The translations under genes were made by a program, and so were the position numbers. This document shows, in pieces, positions 54,044-63,272 of a DNA stretch of 64,000 nucleotides; the stretch's first letter is position 1, and the number at the start of each line of letters is the position of its first letter. The notes beneath the pieces were generated by a model. That model did not search any database and was not told the DNA's origin. It worked only from the letters and a program-made list of their open reading frames with translations. The DNA comes from Methanosarcina barkeri str. Wiesmoor (GTDB lineage: Archaea > Halobacteriota > Methanosarcinia > Methanosarcinales > Methanosarcinaceae), in contig NZ_CP009526.1 in assembly GCF_000969985.1 (NCBI RefSeq), positions 1,302,001 through 1,366,000 on the forward strand, read 5' to 3'.

Positions 54044-54697
54044 ATGACAAATACTGAAATCTTTGATAAGTTACGCGACGCAATCGTAAATCAAAATGTC
54101 GCAGGTACTCCAGAGCTATGCAAGGAGGCTCTGGCTTCAGGAATTCCGGCACTTGACATTATTACAAAGGGCCTTTCCGTTGGAATGAAAATTGTCGGTG
54201 ACAAGTTCGAAGCCGCCGAGATTTTTTTGCCTCAGATCATGATGTCCGGAAAAGCGATGAGTAATGCAATGGAAGTCCTTACCCCTGAACTTGAAAAGAA
54301 CAAGAAAGAAGGAGAAGAAGCAGGACTTGCCATCACCTTTGTTGCAGAAGGGGATATTCACGACATTGGTCACAGGCTTGTTACCACAATGCTTGGAGCA
54401 AATGGGTTCCAGATCGTTGACCTGGGAGTTGATGTGCTTAATGAAAACGTCGTAGAAGAAGCTGCAAAGCACAAGGGAGATAAAGTCCTCTTAGTAGGCT
54501 CTGCCCTTATGACCACCTCCATGCTCGGCCAGAAAGACCTTATGGACAGGCTCAATGAAGAAAAACTCAGGGACAATGTAAAGTGCATGTTCGGAGGAGC
54601 ACCAGTATCTGATAAATGGATCGAAGAAATCGGAGCTGATGCAACTGCAGAAAATGCTGCTGAGGCTGCAAAAGTTGCACTTGAGGTAATGAAATAA
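54044..54697 (+). CDS. mtmC: monomethylamine corrinoid protein
   Basis: Methyl carrier between MtmB and the CoM methyltransferase. The 217 residues contain the helical cap (SGIPALDIITKGLSVGMK) and the corrinoid domain with GDIHDIG (cobalt ligand H106), LLVGSALMTTSM and FGGAPVSDKW. It is the first gene of the operon, 17 bp before mtmB. It is distinct from MtaC in length and sequence, and the pairing with an amber-containing mtmB supports the monomethylamine assignment. Confidence 0.95.
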   Translation: MTNTEIFDKLRDAIVNQNVAGTPELCKEALASGIPALDIITKGLSVGMKIVGDKFEAAEIFLPQIMMSGKAMSNAMEVLTPELEKNKKEGEEAGLAITFVAEGDIHDIGHRLVTTMLGANGFQIVDLGVDVLNENVVEEAAKHKGDKVLLVGSALMTTSMLGQKDLMDRLNEEKLRDNVKCMFGGAPVSDKWIEEIGADATAENAAEAAKVALEVMK

Positions 54698-54714: not shown

Positions 54715-56091
54715 ATGACATTTAGAAAGTCCTTTGATTGCTATGATTTCTACGACAGAGCAAAAGTAGGAGAAAAGTGTACTCTGGACGACTGGGATCT
54801 CATGAGGATCCCAATGAAAGCAATGGAACTCAAGCAGAAGTATGGGCTTGACTTCAAGGGAGAGTTTATCCCGACAGATAAGGATATGATGGAAAAACTC
54901 TTCAAGGCCGGCTTTGAGATGCTACTTGAGTGTGGAATTTATTGCACAGATACCCATAGGATCGTAAAGTACACTGAAGACGAAATCTGGGATGCAATCA
55001 ACAATGCCCAGAAGGAATTTGTGCTCGGAACTGGCAGGGATGCCGTTAATGTAAGGAAGAGAAGTGTTGGTGACAAGGCAAAGCCAATCGTACAGGGTGG
55101 ACCTACCGGTTCTCCAATTTCCGAAGACGTGTTTATGCCTGTTCACATGAGCTATGCCCTGGAAAAGGAAGTAGACACGATTGTTAATGGTGTCATGACT
55201 ACAGTACGTGGAAAAGCTCCTGTTCCAAAAAGTCCTTATGAAGTTCTTGCTGCAAAGACCGAAACAAGGCTAATTAAGAATGCTTGCGCCATGGCTGGTA
55301 GGCCTGGCATGGGTGTCTAGGGCCCAGAGACCTCACTGTCCGCCCAGGGAAACATTTCCGCTGACTGTGCCGGCGGAATGACCTGTACGGACAGTCACGA
55401 GGTCTCGCAACTCTGTGAACTCAAGATCGATCTCGATGCAATTTCAGTTATTGCTCACTACAATGGGAACAGCGACATCATAATGGACGAACAGATGCCG
55501 ATCTTTGGAGGATATGCAGGCGGCATTGAAGAAACGACTATAGTCAACATTGCAACCCATATCAACTCCCTTGTTATGAGCAACGCAAGCTGGCACCTGG
55601 ACGGCCCTGTCCACATTCGCTGGGGTTCAACAAACACCAGAGAGACATTGACGATTGCAGGCTGGGCATGTGCAACAATTTCCGAATTTACGGACATACT
55701 GTCAGGTAACCAGTACTACCCATGTGCAGGCCCATGCACTGAGATGTGCCTGCTCGAAGCTTCAGCCCAATCCATTACTGACACTGCTTCAGGCAGAGAA
55801 ATCCTCTCCGGTGTCGCATCCGCAAAGGGTGTCGTTACCGACAAGACCACAGGTATGGAAGCCAGAATGATGGGAGAAGTAGCAAGGGCAACGGCAGGTG
55901 TGGAAATCTCAGAAGTAAATGTGATACTCGACAAGCTTGTAGCACTCTACGAGAAGAATTACGCAAGCGCACCAGCAGGAAAGACCTTCCAGGAATGCTA
56001 CGACGTAAAGACCGTAACACCAACTGAAGAGTACATGCAGGTATACGACGGAGCAAGAAAGAAGCTCGAAGACCTGGGACTTGTATTCTAA
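54715..56091 (+). CDS. mtmB: monomethylamine methyltransferase with in-frame UAG (pyrrolysine)
   Basis: Transfers a methyl group from monomethylamine to the corrinoid of MtmC. The reading frame is interrupted by TAG at 55318-55320, codon 202, and then continues without change of frame to TAA at 56091, giving 458 residues, the family length. Residue 202 is the known pyrrolysine position in MtmB (context GRPGMGV-Pyl-GPETSLSAQG). The sequence after the TAG is fully conserved-looking (ISADCAGGMTCTDSHEVSQL), so this is readthrough, not decay. GGGAGGCAAGACA is a strong ribosome site. Needs PylS, tRNA-Pyl and PylBCD, not in this window. Confidence 0.98.
55318..55400 (+). promoter_or_regulatory. Pyl amber codon and downstream PYLIS-type stem region
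   Basis: The TAG is followed by GGGCCCAGAGACC and several complementary segments (GGCGGAATG, GTCCGCC), matching the position of the stem-loop described after mtmB amber codons. Its need for readthrough is debated. Confidence 0.7.
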
Positions 56092-56210: not shown

Positions 56211-56750
56211 GGGTACTTTCTTCATGCTTTTTCTACACTTTCACGGCGTAGACTTCTCTGTGAAAATAACATCCTTTTTTAAGTGCCTATTTTTTCAGGT
56301 GCCAGTGCATGATCCAAACTGGTTGATTTTGATGAGAGGAAGGCATTGATTGATTGATTGATTGATTTGAACAAGTTTATTCAAATGAGTTCTATACAAT
56401 TGGTACTGCACCTTGAATTTCAGATTTATAAAAAATAGAATAGGCTGCTCACGAGAAAACGGTTAGAGACGGACAAGAAGAAGGAAATAAAACTTATCCT
56501 TCCTGATAATCGTTTTGGTCGTGGTGTATGAAATGAGGCTTTAATATCTACTCGCAAGCAACCGGATTCTTATTACCTATAAGTGATATTTATACTTTGC
56601 CACAACTAATATTCTCATTTTAACACTTTCCAGTTTTTTCCGGTTCCGAAGTGAATAAATATTTCTCAACAGTGCTTTTTTCCCATGATAAAGCTCATAT
56701 TCTCACATATCCATACTTACTTGAGAGAGAACCTGGGGGCATGAAGGATT
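56211..56750. other. spacer after mtmCB
   Basis: No gene. Contains ATTGATTGATTGATTGATT (4-bp tandem repeat near 56348-56366) followed by TTTGAACAAGTTTATTCAAA, an inverted repeat. Leader of the next gene at the end. Confidence 0.5.
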
Positions 56751-56777
56751 ATTCTACCGCTCGATGAAAACGAAGCT

Positions 56778-57629
56778 TTGGAAATGGGACTTACTCTGGT
56801 TAATGAAAAGAATGAAACCGACATCAAAGAAGTCCTTAACTACCTCTTAGAGCTTGCACTGAAATATGCAAAAGAAGAGAATGAAATCGACACAAAAAGA
56901 TTAATTGAATATATGAAAAAGATAGGAAAAGCGGCAGCTGTTGCCAAGCTTGAACCAATTGTTGTCAATACGCTTTTGCTTTTTCCCCAGGTTGCCACAG
57001 AGGCATGCAAGCAGAATATGGAAAATGTTCTTGTGAGCATAGCACTTGCATTTGGAGAGATTGGAAAGGTCGCAGCAGAACAAAAAATGGAGACTCCTGC
57101 AAAGATCGCAGCTTCCTACCTTGGCGAGATGGGAAATACTGCAGCTTCGCGAAGAGCTAAAAAGGGAACAATTGCAGTTATTTTCGCTCTTGGGGAGATC
57201 GGAAAAAGCGTTACATGGCAAAAGCTGGGTGATGTTGCAAGCAGTACAGCTTTCCTTCTCGGGGAAACCGGGAAGGTTGCTGCAAGCCAGAATTTTGAGG
57301 ACGCGGTATTAAATGCCGAGCTGCTGTTGCAGGAGATCGGAACAGGTGCAATTGAAAAAAACTTGAAAGAAACTGCAGATATGAGTGTACGCTCTATCCA
57401 GGATATAGAAAAAACTGCAGATCGTCAGGGGCTTGATAAGGCTTTGCTTCAGGCAGCCTATTCACTCGAGGCAATTAAATTTAATGCCGAGGATCGCTAT
57501 CTAATGAATGCATCCATAATTGCTGAAGTGGCTCTCCTTCACTTTGAAAGATTGAATATTGAGAGACTGGAAGATAAGCTGAATAAAATTTCCAGGGGAA
57601 AAAAGAGATCACCAGGTACAGGTTTATGA
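56778..57629 (+). CDS. 23-residue alpha-repeat protein, paralog 1
   Basis: About 284 residues from TTG 56778. From about residue 43 the sequence falls into nine or ten consecutive units of exactly 23 residues, pattern xxxAxxxLGEIGKxAAxxxxExx (for example AKIAASYLGEMGNTAASRRAKKG, TIAVIFALGEIGKSVTWQKL). Predicted all-helical, soluble, no signal peptide. I do not recognise the family; unit length differs from TPR (34), HEAT (about 37) and ARM (about 42). Alignment with paralogs 3 and 4 shows the frame is homologous up to ATT at 56751, which aligns with their ATG, so the true start may be upstream and non-canonical. It is followed by paralog 2. Confidence 0.7.
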   Translation: MEMGLTLVNEKNETDIKEVLNYLLELALKYAKEENEIDTKRLIEYMKKIGKAAAVAKLEPIVVNTLLLFPQVATEACKQNMENVLVSIALAFGEIGKVAAEQKMETPAKIAASYLGEMGNTAASRRAKKGTIAVIFALGEIGKSVTWQKLGDVASSTAFLLGETGKVAASQNFEDAVLNAELLLQEIGTGAIEKNLKETADMSVRSIQDIEKTADRQGLDKALLQAAYSLEAIKFNAEDRYLMNASIIAEVALLHFERLNIERLEDKLNKISRGKKRSPGTGL

Positions 57630-57784
57630 ACTGTTACATTCAGTTTAATGATTATTCATATTGAGTTAATCAGTTCGATATTAAATCTCAATCGTTGCCT
57701 TCTTTACAGGGAAAGGAGTGCAGGAAGGATTACCTGGTTTTAAGGTGCTTTTTCCCGATATAAATTTTTAGTGGGGTGTTCTGA

Positions 57785-58621
57785 ACGTCTATTTCAAACG
57801 AAACCGGGGCAACGGATCTCGGGCTAACTTCAGTTAAGGAAAATGATGAGCTTGGCGTATTACGATCCATAGATTTCCTTACGGAACGAGGAACCGAATA
57901 TATAAATAGAAAACTCGAGCCCGATGCAAAAAAGGCTATTATCTGCATAAGAGACATAGGTAGCGCGGCTGTCTTTCAAAAAATGGAAATCGGGGTATTT
58001 TTATCACTCTTTTCGCTTGGAAAGATGGCTGAAATTGCAAGAGAGCAGAAAATGACTGATACCGGTTTAAGCATCCTTTACTCTCTCTGTGCAATTGGGA
58101 AAGCAGCGGTTGGGCAAAATATGGAGTCTGCGGTCAGGATCGCAGTCTCATATCTTGGAGAAATTGCGAATTCTGCCTCGCTTCAGAAGACGGAGAGAGA
58201 GGCGCTTGCTGCGGCGCTTGCTATAGGATCTATAGGAAAGGAAACTTTCGGGCAGCAGAGTATCAGGGTTCCGGAAAACGGAGGATTTCTTCCTCCAAAG
58301 TCATCTATCCTCTTATCTCAACCTCCTGGAAAAGAGGCTATTCTCTTCTCCAGAGAATTTCCGGGTATTTTTAGTCTGCTTGTTCAACAGGGAGGAGAAA
58401 CCGATTCCCTTCAGGATATTCCTGTCCTTTCGGAAAATGAATCGTCTTATACGGGTTTTACCGACTTTGAGAATTTAATCATAAGAGCTGCTAATTCTCT
58501 GGGAACGATGATTTTTGAAGTTAATGCAAAATTTTTAATAAGTCACGTGCTTATGACAAAACTTGCCCTTGAAACTCTCAATGGATCTGAATATATACAT
58601 GAAGCCGAATCTCTTGATTGA
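57785..58621 (+). CDS. 23-residue alpha-repeat protein, paralog 2 (start uncertain, possibly decayed)
   Basis: The first ATG in frame is at 57983, but coding similarity to the other paralogs extends upstream to ACG at 57785, immediately after a TGA: ISNETGATDLGLTSVKE aligns gap-free with LPLDENEALEMGLTLVNE of paralog 1. Units of 23 residues include AKKAIICIRDIGSAAVFQKM, VFLSLFSLGKMAEIAREQKM and VRIAVSYLGEIANSASLQKT. A 70-residue Ser/Pro-rich insert (about residues 180-250) separates the last repeat and the C-terminal cap. Either translated from a non-ATG codon, from 57983 as a shortened protein, or a start-loss pseudogene. Confidence 0.55.
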   Translation, partial: TSISNETGATDLGLTSVKENDELGVLRSIDFLTERGTEYINRKLEPDAKKAIICIRDIGSAAVFQKMEIGVFLSLFSLGKMAEIAREQKMTDTGLSILYSLCAIGKAAVGQNMESAVRIAVSYLGEIANSASLQKTEREALAAALAIGSIGKETFGQQSIRVPENGGFLPPKSSILLSQPPGKEAILFSREFPGIFSLLVQQGGETDSLQDIPVLSENESSYTGFTDFENLIIRAANSLGTMIFEVNAKFLISHVLMTKLALETLNGSEYIHEAESLD

Positions 58622-58953
58622 AAACTTATAATATTTTAAAGTGCCGTTTGCTCTGAATAGCTTTGATCCTGGTTGCAGTTCCAGGGAATCCTCTAATTTC
58701 ATGGGACCTGTTTAACTGAGAATCGACATAACTGATTCAAGTGGCTGCATCGGTAGAGTACTTAATATGATGCGAATTCTAGCTACCGTTGAATGGCTTG
58801 AGAAATGCAGGAAACCTTAACATTTAAGGTATATTTTTCAGAATATATATTTCATAATGATTTTTATTCCAATTATTCATCTTACAAGTTGTTATAAAAA
58901 CAAGATTTCTTTTTTGCCAGGTCAACTTTGGTAATTTTAGGGGTTATTGGTCC
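58622..58953. other. 330-bp spacer
   Basis: No gene. AT-rich second half provides the promoter of the beta-helix gene; AGGGGTTATT lies before its ATG. Confidence 0.4.
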
Positions 58954-60456
58954 ATGAAACGGAAACGCATTCAGGTTATTCTCATAATTTTTCTATTTAT
59001 GCTTTGGACAGCAATTACTCAAACCGAGGCTGCGGTTGTCACTGTAAATAACAGTGGTGATGGGAATTATTCTTCGATCCAGGAAGCTATCAATAATTCA
59101 CATGATGGGGATACAGTCCTTGTAAGCCCCGGTGTATACAGGGAAAATATAATCGTCAACAGGGAACTTACAATTCTCTCTCATCCCATGCTCTCAGGCA
59201 GCCAGACTAACCGCACCTATATTATAGGTACGGTTTCTGACAATGCGGTCTTCAGTATCAGCTCAGACAATGTGACACTAAACGGTTTTCATATTGCAGG
59301 AGATCCTTTCGGAAAGGATATGTCTCAGGAGGTCGGGCTTTACCTTGAAGGTGTACGAAATTGCTCCTTAAATAACAATACGCTGATACTGACAGATCAA
59401 GGGATTGTTCTCAAGAGTTCTCAGGACAACCATCTTGATGGAAACCTTGTAAGCCTTGGGAACGAGGGGATTGTGCTTGACAATTCAGAGGAGAATGTAC
59501 TGTCAAACAATTGGGTAGTGAGAAATAATCAGGGAATTTCGCTGAATAATTCCTTTAACAATAATCTTGTTAACAATACTGCAGGTTCAAATGGAGTGGG
59601 CATTCTCCTGCAAATGTCTCAGGGAAATAAGCTTGCTTATAACCTAATTTTGAAAAATGAATATGGGGTTCTAGGCCAGGTGGCCGGGTCCAATATTTTA
59701 ACCAATAATAATCTCTACTTTAACGACATTGGCGTGGATCTTAGGGGTTCATCAAACAATTCATTCTATGAAAATGAATTTGTTAACTTTCTGAATGCAG
59801 CAGACGAAGGAAATAATATATGGAACAGCAGCTCGACAGGTAACTTCTGGAATGATCATACAGGGGCAGATGCCGATGGAAATGGTATAATCGATAATCA
59901 GTACGCCATTAACCAGATCACTGGAGCTATTGATTATATGCCTTTGATAAATAGGATTTCTTCAGGCAGTGGCTCCGAAGCTTTGGGTGCTAATGGCTAC
60001 ATTTTGTTGGTGCTATTTGAAAAAAAGTACCCTGAAAACTCAACGGGTAACCGCGAAAAAGGGGCTGTTATCGAGACAACCGAACTTGGACAGATAAATA
60101 AATTCCTTGAGGAAGGTCCGGTATTTTTGAAACTTGGGGCTGAATGGTGTGGAGCCTGCCAATCCATGAAACCTATTCTCGATGAGCTGGTTTCCAAGTA
60201 CGGGGATAGAGCAACAATAATGTCCATAAATATAAACAAAAATCCTCAGCTTGCAACTTATTTTGATGTAGGCTACATTCCAGACTCTTCCATGATTGTG
60301 GGTATTGAAAATGGAACATATGTTTACATGCAACTGGATGGTAATATTACCACAGACAGAGTAAGGGCAAGAATTGTTGGACTGGAAGACAAAGAAGTGT
60401 ACGAAAAAGTTCTGGAAAACGCTCTTACCTATGAAGAGAAAAGTAAATCGAAATAA
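58954..60456 (+). CDS. exported beta-helix protein fused to a C-terminal thioredoxin domain
   Basis: Signal peptide at residues 1-26. Residues of about 28-330 are right-handed parallel beta-helix repeats of the NosD/CASH type (SIQEAINNSHDGDTVLVSPGVY start, then NSEENVLSNNWVV, NSFNNNLVNNTAG, SSNNSFYENEF). A C-terminal thioredoxin-like domain starts near 370 with FLKLGAEWCGACQSMKP (WCGAC, C399 and C402), ISINKNP-like and GYIPDSSMIV (the cis-Pro region). So an extracellular carbohydrate- or surface-binding domain carries a redox-active or disulfide-forming domain. No membrane anchor is visible at the C-terminus. It separates the repeat-protein paralogs 2 and 3. Confidence 0.8.
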   Translation: MKRKRIQVILIIFLFMLWTAITQTEAAVVTVNNSGDGNYSSIQEAINNSHDGDTVLVSPGVYRENIIVNRELTILSHPMLSGSQTNRTYIIGTVSDNAVFSISSDNVTLNGFHIAGDPFGKDMSQEVGLYLEGVRNCSLNNNTLILTDQGIVLKSSQDNHLDGNLVSLGNEGIVLDNSEENVLSNNWVVRNNQGISLNNSFNNNLVNNTAGSNGVGILLQMSQGNKLAYNLILKNEYGVLGQVAGSNILTNNNLYFNDIGVDLRGSSNNSFYENEFVNFLNAADEGNNIWNSSSTGNFWNDHTGADADGNGIIDNQYAINQITGAIDYMPLINRISSGSGSEALGANGYILLVLFEKKYPENSTGNREKGAVIETTELGQINKFLEEGPVFLKLGAEWCGACQSMKPILDELVSKYGDRATIMSININKNPQLATYFDVGYIPDSSMIVGIENGTYVYMQLDGNITTDRVRARIVGLEDKEVYEKVLENALTYEEKSKSK

Positions 60457-60790
60457 AAGAGGCCTTTGAATGGTACGTAATTCCGACTAAGTTCAAAATT
60501 TACTTTCTGAAAAAAACGGAAACCCTTTTTTGAATGAACTGCTTCGGTTACAAAATAGTAACACTAATAACCTCGTAACTTCATAGAGTAAGCCAGACTC
60601 CATTTCCTGCGTAGCCGTATCTCTTACACAATAATTTGAAATTAAAAATATGCGATGAAATATACAGGCAAGAATTATAAAACCTGCGGGAAAATATTGA
60701 AGCTTAATGCGTTCTACTAATAATAAGAGACACTACCAATAGGATACTATCAATAAAGAGGGATACTATCAATAAAGAGGGGCAAAAAGA
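60457..60790. other. 330-bp spacer with short direct repeat
   Basis: No gene. GATACTATCAATAAAGAGG occurs twice in succession (about 60741-60780), the second copy supplying the ribosome site GAGGGG of the next gene. Confidence 0.6.
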
Positions 60791-61684
60791 ATGATTACAT
60801 TAAATGAGGCAGAGGCAGTTGAAGTAAATTTATCTGCAGTTGACGAGGGAGATGAGAACAGAGCTTTCCAGGCCCTTGATTCCCTTACAGGAATTGCGGC
60901 AGATTTCCTTTCTGAGAATGAAGAGGCAGATGCCGAGAGAGTCATCCTATCAATTGAGAATGGCGCACAGGCAGCTGCAGAGAAAGAGATGGAGCTTGTT
61001 ACAATTAATTCTATCCTGTCCCTCGGGAAACTGGCAAGGAAAGCAGCAGACAATGGATTTGAGTCTGCCCTCGGCAAGGCCTCCATAGCAATAGGAAAAT
61101 TGGGAAAAACTGCAGCTGTACATTCTCTTGAAGCTGGTTCAAAGGTCGCTGCTACAACTCTGATGGAGATCTGGAACTTCTTCCCAGAACAGTGGGATCA
61201 GGAAAAGGTAATTTCCTTTTCTTTGCTCTTTAAAGAGATCGGAACCTCTGCTGCCAGACAGGGTATGGAGGACGTTGTGCTCAGTGCAGTAACCTGCCTG
61301 GGAGAAATCGGGAAAAAAGTTGCAGCAAAAAGCCTTGAACTTGAAACTGTAAGCAGCCTGCTTTTGCTTGAGGAAATTGGTAAACTTGCGGCGGAGAATT
61401 ACTTTGATGAAGCTTTGAGTTCAACAGCGCTTTCCATAGAAGATATCGGGAAACTATCTGTAAAGAAGGGGCTTAATGATGCAGCTTTGCAGTGTCAGTG
61501 GGCACTTGAGACTCTGCGAGTCCAGGCTGAAGAAAAGGTTCTAAATAATTCTTCAATCGTGGCGGAAGTGGCTCTGGATAATTTTAAAGATGTCAGCTAT
61601 ACGGATTCCGAGGAAAAAGTGGAGAAGTTCCAGGTAATAAAGACTCTTCAGAAAAAAATCCAATCTAATATGAAAATTCAGTAA
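60791..61684 (+). CDS. 23-residue alpha-repeat protein, paralog 3
   Basis: GAGGGGCAAAAAGA before ATG 60791 decides the start. The 297 residues have an acidic N-terminal cap (1-48), about nine units of 23 residues, with only one unit of 24 and one of 22 (for example TINSILSLGKLARKAADNGF, VLSAVTCLGEIGKKVAAKSL, TVSSLLLLEEIGKLAAENYF), and a charged C-terminal tail. The C-terminal unit (SSIVAEVALDNFK) matches paralog 1 (ASIIAEVALLHFE). Cytoplasmic, all-helical; function unknown. Confidence 0.8.
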   Translation: MITLNEAEAVEVNLSAVDEGDENRAFQALDSLTGIAADFLSENEEADAERVILSIENGAQAAAEKEMELVTINSILSLGKLARKAADNGFESALGKASIAIGKLGKTAAVHSLEAGSKVAATTLMEIWNFFPEQWDQEKVISFSLLFKEIGTSAARQGMEDVVLSAVTCLGEIGKKVAAKSLELETVSSLLLLEEIGKLAAENYFDEALSSTALSIEDIGKLSVKKGLNDAALQCQWALETLRVQAEEKVLNNSSIVAEVALDNFKDVSYTDSEEKVEKFQVIKTLQKKIQSNMKIQ

Positions 61685-62525
61685 GAGGTACTCTAACGCA
61701 GCTGTTTATATAGCTCAGTTATTTATTCCATCTGTTTATCCAAGAAAAATATTTACATAATAAACTTTTCGTTTTTGTAGATGGCCTGGTTTATTCTGGC
61801 TTTAAATTTTTTATGAATTTTTACTTTTGACCTACTCCCAGATTTCGATTTTTTTTATTCTGTTTTGGAAAAAGAAGTGATTTTTATTCAGACTTTCTTG
61901 AAGAAAACCTATACCTGTTCCTGGTAAAGCTGAAATAAGTGTTCGAGTACTCTTTGAAAGTTTCTCACTTCTTTGAAACCATTAGTTTTAAATAAATTAC
62001 TACAGTATTTCTCTAAAGCAAATTATTGCTTCCTTGATAAGTGCTTGAGGTTTCAAAGTGAAGTGTTATAAGAGGCGTTTAGATTTAGTCTGTACTTAGC
62101 ATACAATACTCTGCACTTAGCATGCAAAACAGTTGTTCGGGTAAGAGGAAGGTAAGGAGTGGAACCCTTCCCCCTACCTCGAAGGTTGATTTTACTCACG
62201 CAGGAGAATATGCCAGAAACCCGGCGTGAGTTTTTTACTCAGATGATATATATTATGCATGAAATGTATTTAACTCTTTCTATTTTATATATATGTCTTT
62301 TAATCGGGTCATCTTTTATTTTAATCCCAATTTTAATCCCAATTTTAATTTCAATTTCTGTCAAGTAAACATATAAAATTAAGTATAATCTGAAATAGTA
62401 ATCTTGAAGTTCCAAATGTATTTTGAAAATTATAGGAAAACTAATATCTGAGTAAACCTATATAAATACTTAAATTTCTAAAATCCAAAAATTTTTAACG
62501 AATTTTACTGGAAAGGGGTTTTAAT
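61685..62525. other. 840-bp spacer
   Basis: No protein gene believed. Contains the hairpin pair at 62140-62236 listed separately. The last 15 bases carry AAAGGGG for paralog 4. Confidence 0.5.
62140..62236 (+). ncRNA. candidate structured RNA with two hairpins and T-tail
   Basis: GAGGAAGGTAAGG ... CCCTACCTC forms a first stem (62145-62180), and ACTCACGC ... GCGTGAGT (62194-62231) a second, followed by TTTTTT. In an AT-rich spacer this GC-rich pair with a terminal T-run could be a small RNA with terminator, or an insertion sequence end. Confidence 0.35.
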
Positions 62526-63272
62526 ATGTTCTCACTGAACGAACAAAAGGCTATTGAACTTGGAGAATCTGGAGAACGAGCAATAAGAGAACAGAATGAA
62601 TATGATGCGCTCCAGTATGCTGAGTACCTCCGGGAATTAGGGCATGAGTTGCTTGAAAGTAATTTTGAGAAAGAGTCAAAGCGAGTCGTTATCTCACTCA
62701 GAAACATTGGTAATAAAGCTATCCAGAAAAAGATGGATAATGTTGCGTCCACAGCTATTAATGAACTTAAATATCTTTCTGAAACTGCACTTGATAAGAA
62801 TTTCTCAAACGCGATGTGGTCTTTTTCAAAAGCTGCACAGGAGATCGGAAAAGGAGCAGTACAGGCCGAGATGCTCGAACCTGCAAAACTTGCGATCGAC
62901 ACGCTTAAAATGATAGGGATGGGCGCAGTTGAGAAGAAAATGGAAGTTGTAACCCTCTGGACAACCATGTCACTTGAGGAAATGGCTTATCTTGCAAATA
63001 AGCAGCAACTTGAAGATTTAACTAAGGAAGCAAAAGAGGCTAGAGAAGAAATTATAGAATACTCCGAAGCCTCAGGGTTTGTTACAAAGGAACAGATTGA
63101 CAAATACCCACAGCTTATCGCCCAAACCGTAAGTCAATTCTCAGAGCTTCGGAATCTACAGCCTGCAGGTTATGAGACCAAGCCTAATGAAGAATTCACA
63201 GAAGAGGAATTCTTTGAGGGAGAAGGGGAGGAACAAGATCCTGAAACTGAAGCTGCCAGAAAGGAAAAGTAA
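62526..63272 (+). CDS. 23-residue alpha-repeat protein, paralog 4
   Basis: AAAGGGGTTTTAAT before ATG 62526 supports the start. The 248 residues have an N-terminal cap (MFSLNEQKAIELGESGERAI), at least five 23-residue units (SKRVVISLRNIGNKAIQKKM, AKLAIDTLKMIGMGAVEKKM, TLWTTMSLEEMAYLANKQQL) and then a different C-terminus, ending in a highly acidic stretch (EEFFEGEGEEQDPETE). It is the shortest and most diverged member. Followed by two tandem terminators. Confidence 0.8.
   Translation: MFSLNEQKAIELGESGERAIREQNEYDALQYAEYLRELGHELLESNFEKESKRVVISLRNIGNKAIQKKMDNVASTAINELKYLSETALDKNFSNAMWSFSKAAQEIGKGAVQAEMLEPAKLAIDTLKMIGMGAVEKKMEVVTLWTTMSLEEMAYLANKQQLEDLTKEAKEAREEIIEYSEASGFVTKEQIDKYPQLIAQTVSQFSELRNLQPAGYETKPNEEFTEEEFFEGEGEEQDPETEAARKEK

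Follow-up and report, generated by a model that had tools for sequence, protein, structure and literature searches.

A 23-residue repeat in a Methanosarcina protein family, predicted to form an alpha-solenoid with one helix per unit

In a stretch of 64,000 nucleotides from the genome of Methanosarcina barkeri str. Wiesmoor (contig NZ_CP009526.1, positions 1,302,001 to 1,366,000; referred to as the window) four paralogous genes, P1 to P4, encode proteins which are built from consecutive units of 23 residues. We suggest that these proteins are archaeal alpha-solenoids in which every unit is a single helix, that the repeat array is derived from a fusion with the membrane protein family DUF2254, and that it acts as a rigid docking rod; as a whole we give this reading a probability of about 0.65. 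Its parts differ in strength. The regular one-helix units and a stacked fold similar to that of designed repeat proteins are very probable on the basis of the predicted models; the docking of a partner protein is a tentative proposal which we regard as somewhat doubtful.

The repeat unit and its predicted fold

The ortholog profile of each paralog was compared with itself at every lag, and the values were related to 300 column shuffles. At lag 23 the z values are 11.1 for P1, 5.6 for P2, 9.5 for P3, and 5.4 for P4, whereas those at lags 22 and 24 are between −1.7 and 0.6. Lags 23, 46, and 69 are the top lags in P1–P4 and also stand out in two other paralogs encoded elsewhere in this genome. 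An earlier note on this DNA had proposed the same period and the pattern xxxAxxxLGEIGKxAAxxxxExx; the period is confirmed, and the pattern is correct. The features of the cluster are as follows.

56735–56739, + strand: GGGGG motif resembling a ribosome-binding site, 8 nucleotides upstream of the P1 ATT start
56748–57629, + strand: P1, about 293 residues; terminal helices enclose 11 units of 23 residues that are in register; the start is probably ATT at 56748 or the adjacent ATT at 56751
56814–57572, + strand: P1 repeat array, 11 units of 23 codons
57785–58621, + strand: P2, 278 residues, with ACG at the homologous start position
57848–58261, + strand: P2 repeat array, 6 motif-bearing units
58262–58468, + strand: P2 middle segment, 23-residue motif absent, conserved among orthologs
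60791–61684, + strand: P3, 297 residues, AlphaFold2 model of 13 helices
60854–61612, + strand: P3 repeat array, 11 units, predicted helix starts at residues 22, 45, 68, 91, 114, 137, 160, 183, 206, 229, and 252
62526–63272, + strand: P4, 248 residues, terminal helix, 7 units, and an acidic tail (200–248) predicted to be disordered
62598–63080, + strand: P4 repeat array, 7 units, predicted helix starts at residues 25, 48, 71, 94, 117, 140, and 163

The earlier counts of nine or ten units in P1 and P3 and of at least five in P4 were too low, as P1 and P3 each have 11 full units between their terminal helices and P4 has 7. The ends of the paralogs are indeed shared, as had been noted. The units had also been described as in register and nearly free of insertions and deletions. 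This is correct for P1 and P3, which keep the 23-residue register from end to end without any indel, but not for the whole family: in P2 six units with the motif are followed by about 69 residues that lack it and then by a recognisable C-terminal end, and small indels occur elsewhere. In some species P3 is longer by one residue, and in P6 and P7 (two members outside the window, see below) a few and four residues, respectively, are affected.

In P1, P3, and P4 the first half of the unit has the consensus E1, Ala4, Ala7, Ala/Ile8, Leu11, and Gly/Glu12, and the second half Glu13, Ile/Leu14, Gly15, Lys16, Ala18, Ala19, Lys/Gln21, and Leu/Met/Phe23. Variability is lowest at position 15 and highest at positions 17 and 20–22, a distribution that fits a helix which is tightly packed and exposed at one end. 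A two-layer solenoid with differing faces would be expected to show an alternation of odd and even units; such an alternation was not found consistently, and the two layers of the rod may therefore be equivalent. Lag 46 was not consistently preferred over lag 23.

The structure of P3 was predicted with AlphaFold2 from an alignment of 39 family members and that of P4 from an alignment led by its own orthologs. For P3 the predicted local distance difference test score (pLDDT) is 92.2 and the predicted template modelling score (pTM) 0.90. In this model 11 helices begin exactly 23 residues apart (22+23k), mostly with 20 residues in the helix and 3 in the turn, and the main irregular turn is at residues 129–136. 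The model of P4, a protein with 24% identity to P3, has the same spacing of 23 residues (25+23k), and both models are free of strands. As the helix starts are 23 residues apart, one sequence unit corresponds to one helix and two units to a hairpin. Thus, in the models the repeat unit is one 20-residue helix with a 3-residue turn, and a hairpin requires two such units. The regular solenoid with a 23-residue step that had been anticipated for P3 is predicted for P3 and likewise for P4, but its unit has one helix and not two as in the solenoids with which it had been compared. Natural alpha-solenoids are usually described with units of two or three helices. In the predicted models tandem helices stack into a rod or superhelix, which defines an alpha-solenoid; repeats of the TPR, HEAT, ARM, and PPR type have at least two helices per sequence unit, in contrast to one helix per 23 residues here.

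When the models were compared with known structures using Foldseek, the best matches were designed helical repeat proteins. For P4 these include the designed hinge protein 8fin_A with a template modelling score (TM) of 0.87 normalized by the target and a root mean square deviation of 2.3, and the designed protein DHR54 with 0.81; the first natural protein appeared only at rank 21. For P3 they include a designed circular repeat (TM 0.53 by query) and DHR54 (0.73 by target), and natural proteins such as eIF3a PCI and LGN TPR were weaker by E-value. No match below 1e-3 was found in a viral structure library. DHR54 (5cwl) and 8fin (cs207A), which offer the best Foldseek likeness for both models, are stacks of antiparallel helices which are nearly equal in length and joined by very short turns. 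From the superpositions on these stacked antiparallel designs we infer that the helices of the family fold back on one another. Nevertheless, DHR54 and 8fin are artificial, and the family described here is natural with a sequence unit of one helix; designed helical repeat proteins are built from two-helix units.

Family members and relatives fused to DUF2254

The genome of M. barkeri contains six clear members, P1–P4 together with P6 (C2:1935697) and P7 (C2:2415549), and additionally a DUF2254-fused relative at C2:4224115. Members are found in all 31 Methanosarcina species searched, and in 28 of the 31 genomes there is a full-length ortholog of P3 with at least 61% identity; the ortholog of M. 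spelaei is 90% identical. The gene order P1–P2–P3 is maintained. Close relatives of the paralog set also occur in two sister genera, and with the family profile A1 weaker relatives are detected throughout the class and the phylum (other Halobacteriota). The viral contigs, plasmids, and phages searched yielded no relatives. In several species a fifth, shorter paralog of the cluster, P5, with about 204 residues is located downstream of P3 (L044:3192-3815, − strand; L127:5651-6262, + strand); it was not found in the window.

The clustering of the genes had been taken as the outcome of a local tandem expansion. A recent expansion is contradicted by the low identity of P1, P2, and P4 to P3 (19–32%) and by the presence of the set in the whole genus and in the sister genera. 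In addition, P1 is most similar to P6, which is 570 kb away, and not to its neighbours in the cluster, which likewise speaks against a young expansion in tandem. Judged from these sequence comparisons, the duplication of the paralogs is probably ancient, and the family has a greater age and a broader distribution than the earlier note had assumed.

The distant relatives are mostly proteins of 400–700 residues, and in 23 of the 28 that were tested a DUF2254 membrane segment precedes the 23-residue units; among the lags, 23 ranks first or almost first in every one of the 28 relatives. In a profile–profile comparison the soluble family matches the DUF2254 fusions with a probability of 99.7 (E 3e-25). 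The DUF2254 matches cover positions 3–177 of the 368 positions in the Pfam model and thus only about its first half. In one relative, L086, a unit resembles the next but one (50%) more than its direct neighbour (41%), as though blocks of two units had been duplicated. The distant relatives thus share the array with P1–P4, which differ from them by lacking the membrane segment: in P1–P4 DUF2254 (PF10011) is absent from the Pfam scan and neither a signal peptide nor a membrane segment was seen. In the only DUF2254 protein found in the M. barkeri genome (C2:4224115-4224558; L116:514-2154, − strand) a degenerate repeat region follows the membrane domain.

DUF2254 is reported to be a family of membrane proteins, some of which are predicted to be knotted and others unknotted (PMC11184937), and we found no function for it in the open-access literature. 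At 19 loci with genes of the DUF2254-type array no family-linked neighbour was detected; the recurring neighbours, among them a fibrillarin-like methylase (named by eye), track local synteny within a few genera and not the family.

Gene starts and neighbourhood of the cluster

Both P1 and P2 lack an ATG, GTG, or TTG codon ahead of their conserved coding region, and one may therefore ask whether they are decaying pseudogenes. For P1, the start codon is probably ATT, which is conserved in 17 of 19 Methanosarcina orthologs, and in the other two GTG is found just before this position; in the window there are two tandem ATTs, and a nearby out-of-frame ATG is not conserved. A run of G residues with similar spacing as in P1 is also present before P3 (GGGG, 8 nucleotides) and P4 (GGGG, 7 nucleotides). 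At the start position of P2, 20 orthologs have ATG (11), ACG (7, including the window), GTG (1), or ATA (1). P2 probably starts upstream of the listed ATG open reading frame, at the ACG at 57785; the first in-frame ATG is at position 57983. The ratio of nonsynonymous to synonymous substitution rates (dN/dS) is 0.05 for codons 2–11 of P1 and 0.09 for codons 2–66 of P2, the 65 codons which precede this ATG. As the codons ahead of the first canonical start are constrained, these data suggest a weak and unusual initiation rather than decay. In fact every paralog is under purifying selection, with dN/dS values of 0.10–0.23 for P1–P4, 0.11–0.19 for P6, and 0.20–0.33 for P7, and P2 is the most constrained of them (0.10–0.17 over the full gene). 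The reading frames of P1 and P2 are open in the whole genus. On the basis of dN/dS we reject the pseudogene reading, which is very improbable.

Upstream of the cluster, mtmB for monomethylamine methyltransferase (54715–56091) contains an in-frame TAG at 55318–55320, presumably read as pyrrolysine, and is preceded by the gene of a corrinoid-binding protein at 54044. Between P2 and P3 (58954–60456) there is a gene whose product combines a NosD/beta-helix protein with a thioredoxin domain fused to its C-terminus; this gene is absent between P2 and P3 in another species (L041). A 12-nucleotide tandem repeat, ATTTTAATCCCA, is located upstream of P4 (62318–62357).

Known repeat families and the proposed role of the rod

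For P1–P4 there was no credible match in Pfam or NCBIfam, no catalytic domain was detected, and a sequence search of the PDB with P3 alone gave no match. The leucine-rich variant, TPR, and ARM families were without Pfam match at E≤1 for P1–P4 and the soluble members and at E≤0.01 for the relatives. The statement of the earlier note that no known domain is present is thus valid for P1–P4 but not for their distant relatives, which carry DUF2254 and of which one array scores as HEAT_PBS. The note had also argued that the period of 23 sets the family apart. The period is real, but on its own it does not exclude leucine-rich repeats (LRRs) or repeats like those of the DC-SIGNR neck.

Many LRRs are 23 residues long, as is the common bacterial unit, and in a sequence search of the PDB a profile of the present family, A3, hits LIC11098 (4u08), an LRR protein of Leptospira, with an E-value of 5.5e-9 and a 23-residue register on the EIG motif. 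This match, however, stems from the common period and LxxEIG. The units lack the strand signature LxxLxLxxN, no member matches any LRR family of Pfam, and both models are strand-free. As the models are all-helix we rejected the match, and an LRR is hardly conceivable here. The DC-SIGNR neck is a natural protein of solved structure with 23-residue helical repeats and one helix per unit (PMC2971551), and by analogy the units could be arranged end to end in an extended, segmented, and oligomeric stalk. We consider this to be very unlikely, too. The neck of this animal lectin is a collinear tetrameric stalk with a proline at each repeat junction, a heptad pattern, and four-helix bundles between chains, whereas the units described here are rich in Gly and Ala and have no conserved proline in the turn or elsewhere, and the monomer model of P3 is compact (pTM 0.90) and superposes on stacked hairpin designs. 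Short tandem alpha repeats forming alpha-rods have likewise been reported from archaea, bacteria, and fungi in a survey which includes Methanosarcina mazei (Palidwor et al. 2009; PMC2647740). These near-identical repeats differ in length, with 31–35 residues, and in the number of helices, with two of about 10 residues per unit.

A more serious alternative is that the 23-residue unit is a shortened HEAT repeat of the PBS-lyase type (EZ-HEAT), whose 31-residue hairpin has lost about 8 residues so that the two helices became fused into one. The array of L086 scores 41.6 bits with HEAT_PBS (PF03130; cut-off 20.9), and none of six permuted, shuffled, and reversed controls did so (0/6). Sub-threshold matches in 8 of the 39 soluble members are the only recurring weak signal, and designed alphaRep proteins, which are HEAT-like with 31 residues, give a weak alignment in which each unit has an insertion of about 8 residues. 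Among the 28 distant relatives two match at E≤0.01, L086 alone being clearly over the cut-off (35.7 versus 20.9 bits). On the other side P1–P4 remain unmatched at E≤1. The units of HEAT_PBS comprise about 27–31 residues and two helices, in contrast to 23 residues and a single helix in the model, and genuine HEAT_PBS arrays of the same genome have a step of 93 nucleotides, that is 31 residues. One such array is found in the frame L155 (C2:3776961-3778064, 1104-aa frame). The motif AAxxLGxIG which both have in common is short and could be convergent. Whether by descent or by convergence, the sequence comparisons do not make P1–P4 members of HEAT_PBS, and we judge an origin by such shortening to be possible but rather unlikely.

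We therefore return to the one-helix solenoid as the preferred reading. In each unit positions 1–20 would form the helix and positions 21–23 the turn ending with Leu, Met, or Phe, and successive helices would fold back and pack via small residues (Ala at positions 4, 7, 8, 18, and 19, Gly at 12 and 15) together with Leu 11 and Ile 14, so that each added unit would lengthen the rod by one equivalent helix. The array may at first have been the cytosolic portion of a membrane protein with DUF2254 and may then have become a separate, soluble protein in the lineage of Methanosarcina, where an ancient duplication of the soluble gene would have led to at least six genes. Each soluble rod, rigid and cytosolic, might dock a partner protein along its helical face; in the DUF2254 forms the docking rod would be held at the membrane, and in Methanosarcina it would be free.

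Several points weigh against this proposal. Neither a partner nor a conserved operon was found, and the genes next to the cluster vary, as do those next to the fusion genes. P2 lacks the motif over three units. The direction from a membrane-fused to a soluble form is deduced from the distribution of the proteins, the binding of a partner is the default guess for solenoids, and the fold is a predicted one.

At about even odds, the family would represent a natural class of alpha-solenoids in which every helix is an equivalent 23-residue unit folding back on the preceding one to give a nearly straight rod, a fold solved so far only as designs, and which would serve as the cytosolic arm of DUF2254 proteins across the Halobacteriota and as free paralogs in Methanosarcina. 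Compared with the solved structures and the open-access literature, the alpha-solenoid kind is known and the predicted single-helix unit appears to be new. The same sequence would serve helices running in both directions, making the family a natural counterpart of the designed repeat proteins. If this is true, it would provide a new type of scaffold, a test of whether solenoids originate by duplication of one helix or of a hairpin, and a first handle on the DUF2254 proteins. Soluble paralogs are conserved in all Methanosarcina species sampled, and in the laboratory strains M. acetivorans and M. mazei they are open to genetic testing.

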